DNA from: Candidatus Bathyarchaeota archaeon B24-2
GTDB lineage: Archaea > Thermoproteota > Bathyarchaeia > Bathyarchaeales > B24-2
NCBI GenBank assembly: GCA_002490245.1
Contig: PCNA01000013.1
Span: forward strand, 1-37,004
Reading direction: 5' to 3'
Length of the DNA: 37,004 bases
Shown: positions 33,484 to 36,964 of the stretch, in pieces
How positions within the stretch are numbered: position 1 is the first letter of the stretch
Layout of the letters: every line of letters starts with the position of its first letter
The notes under the pieces: generated by a model
Databases searched by the model: none
What the model saw: the letters and a program-made list of their open reading frames with translations, nothing else
Told to the model about the DNA's origin: nothing
Program-made: the position numbers and the translations under genes

Positions 33484-34635
33484 ATGTTGGAGATGGGTTC
33501 ATCGCAAACCCTTACTGCTAAATATATAATTAAAGCTAAATTTGAAGTTGAAGGCGTGGTCGAGAAGCCCGACATCATAGGAGCGGTTTTCGGTCAAACA
33601 GAAGGTTTATTTGGACCCGAATTAGACCTCAGAGAACTACAGAAGTCTGGTAGGATAGGGAGGATCGAGATAGAGCTGAAATCGAAGGGTGATAGAACTT
33701 ACGGGAGGATAATAATCCCGACGAGCCTCGATAAGGTTTCCACAGCCATCATAGCGGCGAGCATAGAAAGCATAAACCGGGTCGGCCCCTGCGCCTCCAA
33801 GATAACCCTAGAATGCATAGAGGACGTTAGGGAAGCTAAAAGAAAACAGATCATCGAGAGAGCTAAAAAGATACTTCACGACTGGACCATAGAGAGTTTG
33901 CCGACGGCGGAGGAGGTCTACAGAGAAGTTTCTGAAACCTTAAGGACGGCAAGGGTCGAGAAATATGGCCCTGAAGGCCTAACCTGCGGGCCTGAAGTAG
34001 ACTCGGCTAAAGAGATAATAATCGTCGAAGGTAGGGCAGACGTCATAAACATGCTGAAATGCGGCTACCAAAACGTGATAGCGCTTGAGGGCGCGAAGAT
34101 CCCCGAGACTATAATAAAGTTAACTAAGGAGAAAGAGGCTACAGCGTTGTTAGACGGAGATAGAGGCGGCGACCTGATACAGAAGGAGCTACTCCAAGTC
34201 ACGAACGTGAAGTATATAGCTAGAGCTCCCGAAGGAAAGGAGGTCGAAGACCTAACCCCAAACGAGATAGCTGAAGCTCTCAAGAACAGGAGACCCGTTG
34301 AGGAGTTATATAGGGAGGCCCGTAGGAGGGTCGGGAGGAAACTTGTGCCGAGAAAGATAGTGGAGATAGCGAAGGAGATCGAGGGAACCTTAGAGGCTGT
34401 TCTCCTAAACGAGAAGCTCGAGGAGATAGGAAGGCTGCCAGTCGGGGAGCTAGCCGAGAAACTTAAAGAGAAGGAGGGTGTGGAGACCATAGTGTTCGAC
34501 GGTGTGATAACTCAGCGTTTAGTAGACATAGCCGAGGAGAAAGGTGTAAAGTACATCGTAGCCGGGAGGATCTCGAACATCGTTAAACAACCGCTTAATA
34601 TGCATCTAATAACGTTCTCAGAGATCTATGGGTGA
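33484..34635 (+). CDS. dnaG: Archaeal DnaG-type primase / exosome subunit
   Basis: 383 residues. The N-terminal archaeal region (YIIKAKFEVEGVVEKPDIIGAVFGQTEGLFGPELDLRELQKSGRIGRIE) precedes a Toprim domain with IIVEGRADVINMLKCGYQNVIALEGA and TALLDGDRGGD, giving the catalytic Glu and the DxD. Archaeal DnaG binds the exosome through Csl4 and can make RNA primers. No zinc-binding N-domain of bacterial DnaG is present, as expected. It converges on polB with a 41-base overlap of coding ends. ATG 33484 or 33493 may be the start. Confidence 0.94.
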   Translation: MLEMGSSQTLTAKYIIKAKFEVEGVVEKPDIIGAVFGQTEGLFGPELDLRELQKSGRIGRIEIELKSKGDRTYGRIIIPTSLDKVSTAIIAASIESINRVGPCASKITLECIEDVREAKRKQIIERAKKILHDWTIESLPTAEEVYREVSETLRTARVEKYGPEGLTCGPEVDSAKEIIIVEGRADVINMLKCGYQNVIALEGAKIPETIIKLTKEKEATALLDGDRGGDLIQKELLQVTNVKYIARAPEGKEVEDLTPNEIAEALKNRRPVEELYREARRRVGRKLVPRKIVEIAKEIEGTLEAVLLNEKLEEIGRLPVGELAEKLKEKEGVETIVFDGVITQRLVDIAEEKGVKYIVAGRISNIVKQPLNMHLITFSEIYG

Positions 34636-36964
34636 GCGCCTGCTTTATCTCGACGCCGAAGATCTTTAGTATCCTCTCCACAGGAGGTACTATCTGCTTC
34701 CAGATATAATACTCTATGTCGACATCCTCGATAGAGGCCAAGTTGTATGGAATAGCCCTCTTATAGATCGGACCTGAACCCGAAATTATCACGTAACCCA
34801 CTTTATCCCCAGGATAGATGGTCCATCCCTTATCGATCAGTATCTTAGCTGCCTCTATATGTGGAGCGTTGACTTTATACTCTTCGATCGGTCTGGTAAT
34901 GGACTTCCAGATCACGAGGTCTTTCAGCGGAACCTTCCGTTCCCTAAGTTGAGATACGTATTCGACCACGAAGTCTCTAGCCTTATCCGGGGACTTCTCC
35001 TTCAGGATGATCTTTAAGACCTCCTCTTGAACCTTTTTGGCCGCTTCAGCCCAGTCTCCACGTACTATCTCGAAGCCTACATAGTCTAATCTTCCGTCCT
35101 TCAGTAAGCCGCAGTACCTTTTCTTAGCCTCCGTGAAGAGCACCCTAACGTAGACCTTGTCCGGCCTCAACTCTAAACCTAACTTCTTCCTAACTATGTC
35201 CAACAGTTTATCGACCTTGGCTTCATCGTACTCCACGAAGACGCTGTCTGTATCCCCGTAGATCACGTTCAGGCCTAACTCTTTGGAAAGTTCAAGGGTG
35301 CTTCGGATGATGTACCTCCCCCAAGCGGTAGCCGCTTCTGCGACAGGCTTGATGTACCACCTTGCACCCAACCAGCCAGCGTAACCATAAACCGCGTTCG
35401 TGATGACCTTTATCGCCTTCTGTCTAGCATCGTAAAGCCTATAGCTCGGGCTCCCCACGGCTAAACTTTTAAGTTTAACCCGCAGCTCGTCTCTAGCCGA
35501 GATGAGGTCTTCTAGAATCTTCTTGTATATCCCGGGAGGCTCCTTCAGAAACCTATGTCCAACTTCAGGAGCCACATACACCTTCTCTTCCGGAACGTCC
35601 GCTCCAGGCTCGACATACGTGTCTGGAGATATATTGTACTTTATCATTATGTTTGGATATAGGGACTTGAAGTCTAGGACCGCGATGTTTTCGTGTAACC
35701 CTTTCTTCGGTGTTAAGACCATCCCGCCCGCGTAGGGGAAGTATCTCCTCTCCACCCTCTTCGGCACGAGCTCCCCGAACCTCCTCGCCTCCCTTATCAA
35801 AAGCCATTCGACCCTGAAGCCGACGGCGGCTGAGCCTACGTAATCCATCGGAATACCTACTATATTCGCTAGCTGCATCGAGTAGTCTAGAATCTTATCG
35901 ACTATACTCATAACCCTCCTTGCCCTATCCATCGAGAACCGAAGTAGCTTAGGACGTTTCGACGGGTCGTCCCAATACCTCGCGAACTCCATTTCGTCTA
36001 TCGATTCTACTTCACCGCCTTCTGATATTCCCAGAAACTCGGCGAAGTTCTCTAAAGTCTTAACCTTAATCTCCCCGAACTCGTCGATGTAATCGAGTAG
36101 GTCTAAGTTTATCCTACCCGTAACCGACATGTGACCGTAAACGCTCCTATGAGGAATAGTCTCCGTCCTTCCCACATACAAGTTTACACCGTTCTTAGCG
36201 GCCCTCTCGATCAAGTAATCCCAGTATTTACTGTTCGTCGCATAGCCCGCGATTATATCTGGGTCGAATCCCCTCACGAAGTCCACGAAAGATTTGATCA
36301 GGGATTTCTCGTCGCCTCCGTTGAGAGAGAACTGTTCACTCTTACCGTCGCTCGTGATTAAGGATATTATAACGATGGGGTCTCTCTTGGGGACGGGTTC
36401 GCCTACCGTGCTGTAACAGACGACCGAGAAAGCCAGTATCTTCAGGGCAGGAGTTTCATGGATGTCGAGCGGCTTGAAAGGTGGTTTAACTAGGTAAACG
36501 GCGTCTACCTTAACTCCTTTCTCACCCTCTAGCTCTTCAACCTCTACCTCGTACCAGCTACATGGCCTTAAATCTCTGTCTATCAGATACCTCGCAGTAA
36601 ATCTTATATCGTCTTCGAGAACTTTATCGACCTTCCCCGTCTTTAAGAACCATTTGACGTGTTCTTCGACGGCCTCAGGCCTCGTGTAGGTCACCTTCAC
36701 GGCGTCTACGGGTTTTCCGAAATACCTCATCTTGCAGACTTCTAGCTCCACTACGTCGCTCATTAGCTCTCTATTCGACTTAACTTCCTCGATTATCTCT
36801 CTAGGCTCCGTTTTTTCCTTCGGTATGCAGTAGAAATAGGGTCTGAAGCCCCGGTCGATGAGGAGTATCCTCATGCCTTCTCTGTCGATCCCCCAGATCC
36901 AGACCTCTGGGCAGCCATCTCTAGCCTCATAGTTAACGTCTAGGAGCCAGAAGGCCTTTCTCAT
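34595..36964 (-). CDS. polB: Family B DNA polymerase with apparently inactivated exonuclease
   Basis: 789 residues. Polymerase motifs are intact: DFKSLYPNIM (motif A, Asp about 431), RQKAIKVITNAVYGYAGW (motif B) and IYGDTDSVFVEY (motif C). In the proofreading domain the Exo I DIE position reads FSVVC (residues 179-183), Exo II lacks the usual Asn and Asp (YATNSKYWDYL), and Exo III has Arg at the Asp position (FSMDRARR, residue 347). Family B replicases usually proofread, so this is probably a specialised or accessory paralog, possibly for repair or lesion bypass. ATG 36964 is the start; an AT-rich promoter region lies at the window edge. Confidence 0.93.
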   Translation of the reverse strand: MRKAFWLLDVNYEARDGCPEVWIWGIDREGMRILLIDRGFRPYFYCIPKEKTEPREIIEEVKSNRELMSDVVELEVCKMRYFGKPVDAVKVTYTRPEAVEEHVKWFLKTGKVDKVLEDDIRFTARYLIDRDLRPCSWYEVEVEELEGEKGVKVDAVYLVKPPFKPLDIHETPALKILAFSVVCYSTVGEPVPKRDPIVIISLITSDGKSEQFSLNGGDEKSLIKSFVDFVRGFDPDIIAGYATNSKYWDYLIERAAKNGVNLYVGRTETIPHRSVYGHMSVTGRINLDLLDYIDEFGEIKVKTLENFAEFLGISEGGEVESIDEMEFARYWDDPSKRPKLLRFSMDRARRVMSIVDKILDYSMQLANIVGIPMDYVGSAAVGFRVEWLLIREARRFGELVPKRVERRYFPYAGGMVLTPKKGLHENIAVLDFKSLYPNIMIKYNISPDTYVEPGADVPEEKVYVAPEVGHRFLKEPPGIYKKILEDLISARDELRVKLKSLAVGSPSYRLYDARQKAIKVITNAVYGYAGWLGARWYIKPVAEAATAWGRYIIRSTLELSKELGLNVIYGDTDSVFVEYDEAKVDKLLDIVRKKLGLELRPDKVYVRVLFTEAKKRYCGLLKDGRLDYVGFEIVRGDWAEAAKKVQEEVLKIILKEKSPDKARDFVVEYVSQLRERKVPLKDLVIWKSITRPIEEYKVNAPHIEAAKILIDKGWTIYPGDKVGYVIISGSGPIYKRAIPYNLASIEDVDIEYYIWKQIVPPVERILKIFGVEIKQALTHRSLRTLLDAY

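Follow-up and report, generated by a model that had tools for sequence, protein, structure and literature searches.

Archaeal PolB3 is usually treated as a high-fidelity proofreader, and the archaeal family-B polymerases with a dead exonuclease have been discussed as PolB2. Considering this, the question raised by one contig end of Candidatus Bathyarchaeota archaeon B24-2 is to which group a family-B polymerase belongs whose exonuclease motifs appear lost and whose polymerase site appears intact, and what it may do. The window (the whole stretch of DNA analysed, 37,004 nucleotides of contig PCNA01000013.1) encodes a full-length enzyme with an exonuclease domain (PF03104) and a polymerase domain (PF00136), and the reading frame is open throughout. 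Its closest solved structure is the PolB of Pyrobaculum calidifontis (5mdn; E 4e-219, whole-length match). An AlphaFold model made with 61 relatives (pLDDT 90.2, pTM 0.85) has both domains folded into a complete PolB fold, and 5mdn was also the top Foldseek match to this model (TM 0.84, 45% identity). The features at the locus are as follows.

33484..34635, plus strand: dnaG-like primase (Toprim), convergent; its 3' end overlaps the polymerase gene by 41 bp
34595..36964, minus strand: family-B DNA polymerase of the PolB3 group, predicted to be exonuclease-dead (exo-dead), 789 aa, ATG start; PF00136 E 1e-66, PF03104 E 3e-21
34598..34615, minus strand: TLLDAY, C-terminal, degenerate form of a PCNA-binding-like tail (relatives: TLFDFF / KLTDFF)
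35240..35260, minus strand: motif C, YGDTDSV, intact; D571, D573
35375..35410, minus strand: motif B, KVITNAVYGYAG, intact; K519, N523, Y526
35648..35674, minus strand: motif A, DFKSLYPNI, intact; catalytic D431, steric-gate Y436
35915..35941, minus strand: degenerate Exo III, RFSMDRARR (canonical RYVLDDVRS), residues 342-350; catalytic Asp to R347
36215..36247, minus strand: degenerate Exo II, GYATNSKYWDY (canonical GYNSNGFDWPY), residues 240-250; Asn to A242, catalytic Asp to Y247
36410..36433, minus strand: degenerate Exo I, AFSVVCYS (canonical AFDIEVYN), residues 178-185; D to S180, E to V182

The interval 35924-36433, to which the preliminary description had drawn attention, corresponds to Exo I through Exo III of ORF 34595-36964 on the minus strand. 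The exonuclease ligands were read from an alignment with 5mdn and the Thermococcus PolBs. Where the canonical 3'-5' exonuclease has D, E, D and D, the B24-2 protein has S, V, Y and R (S180, V182, Y247 and R347), so that the claim that all three motifs were lost held, as did the missing Asn and Asp of Exo II (A242 and Y247). No intact acidic residue stands at the exonuclease metal sites in this alignment. An exonuclease kept active by acidic residues elsewhere, either through misalignment or through a shift of the ligands, is scarcely credible: D249 and D346 do sit 2 and 1 residues off the canonical sites, but Exo I needs both its D and its E, its surroundings offer neither Asp nor Glu as a replacement, and the three motifs align free of gaps with 5mdn (45% identity) as well as with 88 relatives.

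The polymerase motifs gave the opposite picture. Motifs A, B and C were confirmed as intact by alignment, and D431, Y436, K519, N523, Y526, D571 and D573 were invariant in all scorable orthologues of the class (n=88). A protein without any catalytic activity that serves as a structural or regulatory subunit, the role first suggested for PolB2, would agree with the dead exonuclease site and with the divergence of the B24-2 protein. Nevertheless, we consider it very unlikely, as the polymerase catalytic residues do not vary among the scorable class members, in contrast to the drifting exonuclease residues, and one exo-dead relative (L112) carries an intein in motif B, a site which inteins occupy in active polymerases. 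The end branch of the B24-2 protein on the polymerase-domain tree is long (0.6), and for this reason an altered polymerase activity is possible. Inteins were seen at several points in the data set. That of L112 (genome G200; Intein_splicing, LAGLIDADG) lies within motif B (YGY^C...) at residues ~533-1035 of a 1294-aa ORF, another occurs in the exo-active L021, and in G144 C11 the ORF of the PolD large subunit has 1716 aa versus the usual ~1140, probably owing to another intein.

Sequence and gene context place the B24-2 polymerase in archaeal PolB3, not in PolB2. It matches exo-active PolB3 proteins of Thermoproteota at 44-51%, and PolB1 matches it over the polymerase half only, at ~33%. PolB2 is defined by a motif C with a single Asp and a missing Exo III (PMC7544198); here motif C (YGDTDSV) is intact, the exonuclease domain is of full length and its Exo III region is present, though degenerate. 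Together with the dnaG context these features ruled out PolB2 membership, in agreement with the preliminary description, which had set the protein apart from the known inactivated PolB2 proteins by its undamaged polymerase motifs. The operon criterion for PolB2 is an inactivated radA together with an arCOG07300 gene; only the dnaG side is readable at this locus, where the downstream neighbour is the convergent dnaG and the contig stops 40 bp upstream of the polymerase gene. The neighbourhood itself, which had first seemed unusual, proved to be ordinary. The convergent arrangement of polB3 and dnaG is a known conserved PolB3 context (PMC4104785), and it recurs at 27 of 29 class loci as well as beside many exo-active orthologues. 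In relatives, the 3' ends of dnaG and polB lie ~-13 to +42 bp apart.

The losses are not peculiar to B24-2. A long PolB3 orthologue was recovered from about 123 of the 257 genomes of its class that were searched, and each of the 88 orthologues that could be scored kept 0 or 1 of the 4 exonuclease ligands. Because the frame is open and this state recurs in all 88 relatives, an assembly, frameshift or sequencing artefact was rejected; private degeneration in one genome was likewise ruled out, as the class orthologues are exo-dead as well. Thus, what had been regarded as an isolated oddity is, as judged from the sequences, a class-wide state of exonuclease loss. The Exo I Asp was replaced by Ser in 63 of the 88 and the Exo I Glu was kept in none, nor was the Exo III Asp, which was replaced by Asn in 58. 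The Exo II Asp was the sole surviving ligand in 69 of the 88, and by itself it cannot form a two-metal site. Among all 151 scorable sequences the ligand counts were bimodal, with all four kept in 46 and at most two in 105; the B24-2 protein and 21 others had lost all four. Judging by representatives, exo-dead PolB3 occurs in nine further families of the phylum and the remaining families are active. The PolB3 proteins of Candidatus Culexmicrobium profundum (G464) and Candidatus Methanomethylicota (G439) are both exo-dead. Of 119 good class genomes, 49 have no PolB3, among them several that consist of a single contig or are 97-99% complete; the gene is therefore dispensable. Two exo-dead copies (L079, L095) lie on different contigs of one genome (G136). 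In a 99%-complete genome (G195) the gene (L111) is split into two ORFs by a frameshift just past motif C, the first ORF having 579 aa; this may be a sequencing error, a split gene or decay.

The phylogenetic placement called for in the preliminary description was carried out on the polymerase domain only, so the columns of the exonuclease trait do not shape the topology. On this tree the exo-dead lineages fall outside the active cluster, with the exception of the Culexmicrobium-type pair. The exo-active proteins and this pair form one group (SH-aLRT 99), in which the pair is nested (99) and adjoins four active rows (97). Two state changes suffice on this tree and, given the nested position of the pair, it implies two or more losses of the exonuclease. 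Outside the Culexmicrobium case, the placement of the remaining dead lineages on the polymerase-domain tree is compatible both with one ancient loss and with several early losses, also with a Thermococcus PolB as outgroup, whose branch is very long. The ratio of exonuclease-domain to polymerase-domain distance was 1.45-1.55 in the dead lineages and 1.18 in the active ones, a descriptive measure since the pairs are non-independent. The higher divergence of the exonuclease domain in dead lineages is expected if only the exonuclease was freed from constraint.

The preliminary description had also predicted a proofreading replicase elsewhere in the genome, and there is one. The B24-2 genome (1.35 Mb, 98% complete, 92 contigs) encodes PolD, with CDGDED intact in DP2 and DLHVG, GDLIDG, GNHD, YHGRS and GHVH intact in DP1. 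The suggested search for a second PolB or a PolD thus succeeded for PolD, and in this assembly, a gap of which could hide one, neither another PolB nor a Y-family polymerase (PolY) was found. PolD was present in 118 of the 120 good genomes of the class, and most class genomes also carry an exo-active PolB1, a separate gene with intact exonuclease motifs. Three good class genomes (G000, G209 and G229) have an exo-dead PolB3 and neither PolB1 nor PolY. Outside the class (40 genomes in all), exo-dead PolB3 was found in 11 genomes with PolD versus 2 without, the latter two being ~76% complete, and exo-active PolB3 in 3 with PolD versus 24 without. With relatedness ignored, the association of exo-dead PolB3 with PolD has P = 1e-5 by genome and 0.0008 by family. 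PolB3 and PolY were anticorrelated by genome (P = 0.002), but the association weakened by genus (P = 0.11) and on the DP2 tree, where 10 independent pairs comprised 0 of the same and ~3 of the opposite direction (P = 0.25). The idea that exo-dead PolB3 stands in for PolY was therefore set aside, and the anticorrelation is kept only as a hint.

Two further traits were compared across PolB3. Tails of the PCNA type (TLFDFF, KLTDFF) are retained in exo-dead relatives, and the degenerate tail of the B24-2 protein is a putative PIP box. The residues of the uracil-sensing pocket, at positions which we take, from Pyrococcus/Thermococcus PolB, to be the equivalents of Pfu Y7, P36, F116 and R119, hardly vary among the exo-active PolB3 proteins and are relaxed in many of the exo-dead ones, as seen in L155-L194. 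The B24-2 protein keeps most residues of the pocket, all but V93, which is changed to A, a change common to many active enzymes. Its own tail and pocket weigh against the reading proposed below, those of the exo-dead relatives in its favour.

So, what would such an enzyme do? The B24-2 PolB3 is very probably an accessory polymerase with a dead exonuclease and an active polymerase site. Catalytic activity, absence of exonuclease activity, PCNA binding and a role in damage tolerance or gap filling are all inferred here, and low fidelity and translesion synthesis, which the preliminary description had suggested, may accompany them. Taken as a whole, the observations are probably best explained by a PCNA-linked, non-proofreading PolB3 which works beside PolD in damage tolerance and gap filling. 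The PolB3 orthologue would have shed 3'-5' proofreading and retained 5'-3' DNA synthesis, while PolD (DP1/DP2) would carry out chromosome replication with proofreading. PolB3 would step in wherever proofreading is a hindrance: it would elongate primer ends that carry a mismatch or a lesion, and fill gaps, and an end past damage would be extended and not chewed back. Loss of proofreading would be tolerable with replication left to another, proofreading enzyme, and useful at imperfect ends, where proofreading would undo the synthesis. Published work on Sulfolobus bears on this reading. Sulfolobus islandicus lacking its exo-active PolB3 is sensitised to 4-NQO (PMC8100216). The nearest characterised exo-less archaeal PolB, the PolB2 Dpo2 of S. 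islandicus, extends mismatched and lesion ends and copies undamaged DNA with normal fidelity (PMC8764526).

The main rival is a lagging-strand or Okazaki-fragment polymerase, which would perform strand-displacement synthesis or extend primers for PolD, in the manner of Pol alpha or Thermococcus PolB. Loss of the exonuclease would then favour strand displacement over idling, and PolD would proofread in trans. The PolB of Thermococcus kodakarensis does act on the lagging strand and is far better at strand displacement than PolD (PMC13136892), and the PCNA-type tails and the PolD partner are both conserved. However, PolB3 is missing from those 49 good class genomes though PolD is near-universal, and the exo-active PolB1 of most class genomes could do such work; we hold the lagging-strand reading to be possible but rather doubtful. 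On the basis of dispensability, of a PolY link that is only a hint and of the published roles of PolB, we favour an accessory polymerase that serves damage tolerance and gap filling. Whether damage tolerance, rather than lagging-strand work, is its main role is evenly balanced.

No description of an exo-dead PolB3 was found in the open-access literature, including the main surveys of archaeal PolB; supplementary files and subscription journals lay outside this search, and an earlier notice is possible. Our results indicate that PolB3, its polymerase site remaining perfect, shed proofreading throughout one class and, in a separate event, in the Culexmicrobium group; the lineages concerned mostly carry PolD. 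We tentatively suggest, with some reserve, that in a major archaeal lineage whose replication relies on PolD, PolB3 may have become specialised as a polymerase that does not proofread. It would be the archaeal equivalent of Pol zeta or Pol alpha and would have arisen on two or more occasions; B24-2 would have no further PolB and, in the absence of a Y-family enzyme, no other candidate for translesion synthesis. The role of PolB in archaea whose replicase is PolD, a long-standing question, is thereby made testable. These proteins also offer naturally exo-minus polymerases related to those of thermophiles, a property usually engineered for sequencing and for work with modified nucleotides.

Among known systems, the exo-active PolB3 proteins of Thermoproteota (P. 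calidifontis PolB, 5mdn; Sulfolobus Dpo3) are closest to the B24-2 protein. They share with it best-match orthology, the full-length domain order, motifs A, B and C, a PCNA-type tail and the convergent dnaG neighbour. In contrast, they keep the four acidic ligands that are S, V, Y and R in B24-2, and their hosts in our sample mostly lack PolD, which B24-2 has. PolB1 of the same class is also a family-B polymerase of these archaea, but it is ~30-35% identical, over the polymerase half only, keeps IDIEV, FNGDDFD and YCxxDA, and was not found in the B24-2 genome. PolB2/Dpo2, the translesion extender of Sulfolobus, resembles the B24-2 enzyme in prospect, being an exo-less, dispensable archaeal PolB that possibly extends past damage; it differs in its altered motif C with one Asp and in having no Exo III, whereas B24-2 has YGDTDS, a full-length exonuclease domain and the PolB3 neighbourhood. 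The B24-2 protein lacks the C-terminal metal-binding domain and the known accessory subunits of eukaryotic Pol zeta and Pol alpha, its exonuclease was lost independently and a like role for it is putative. Pol alpha is naturally exo-dead, and the likeness to this pair is that of family-B enzymes in which the polymerase site is intact but the exonuclease domain inactivated, placed beside proofreading replicases.
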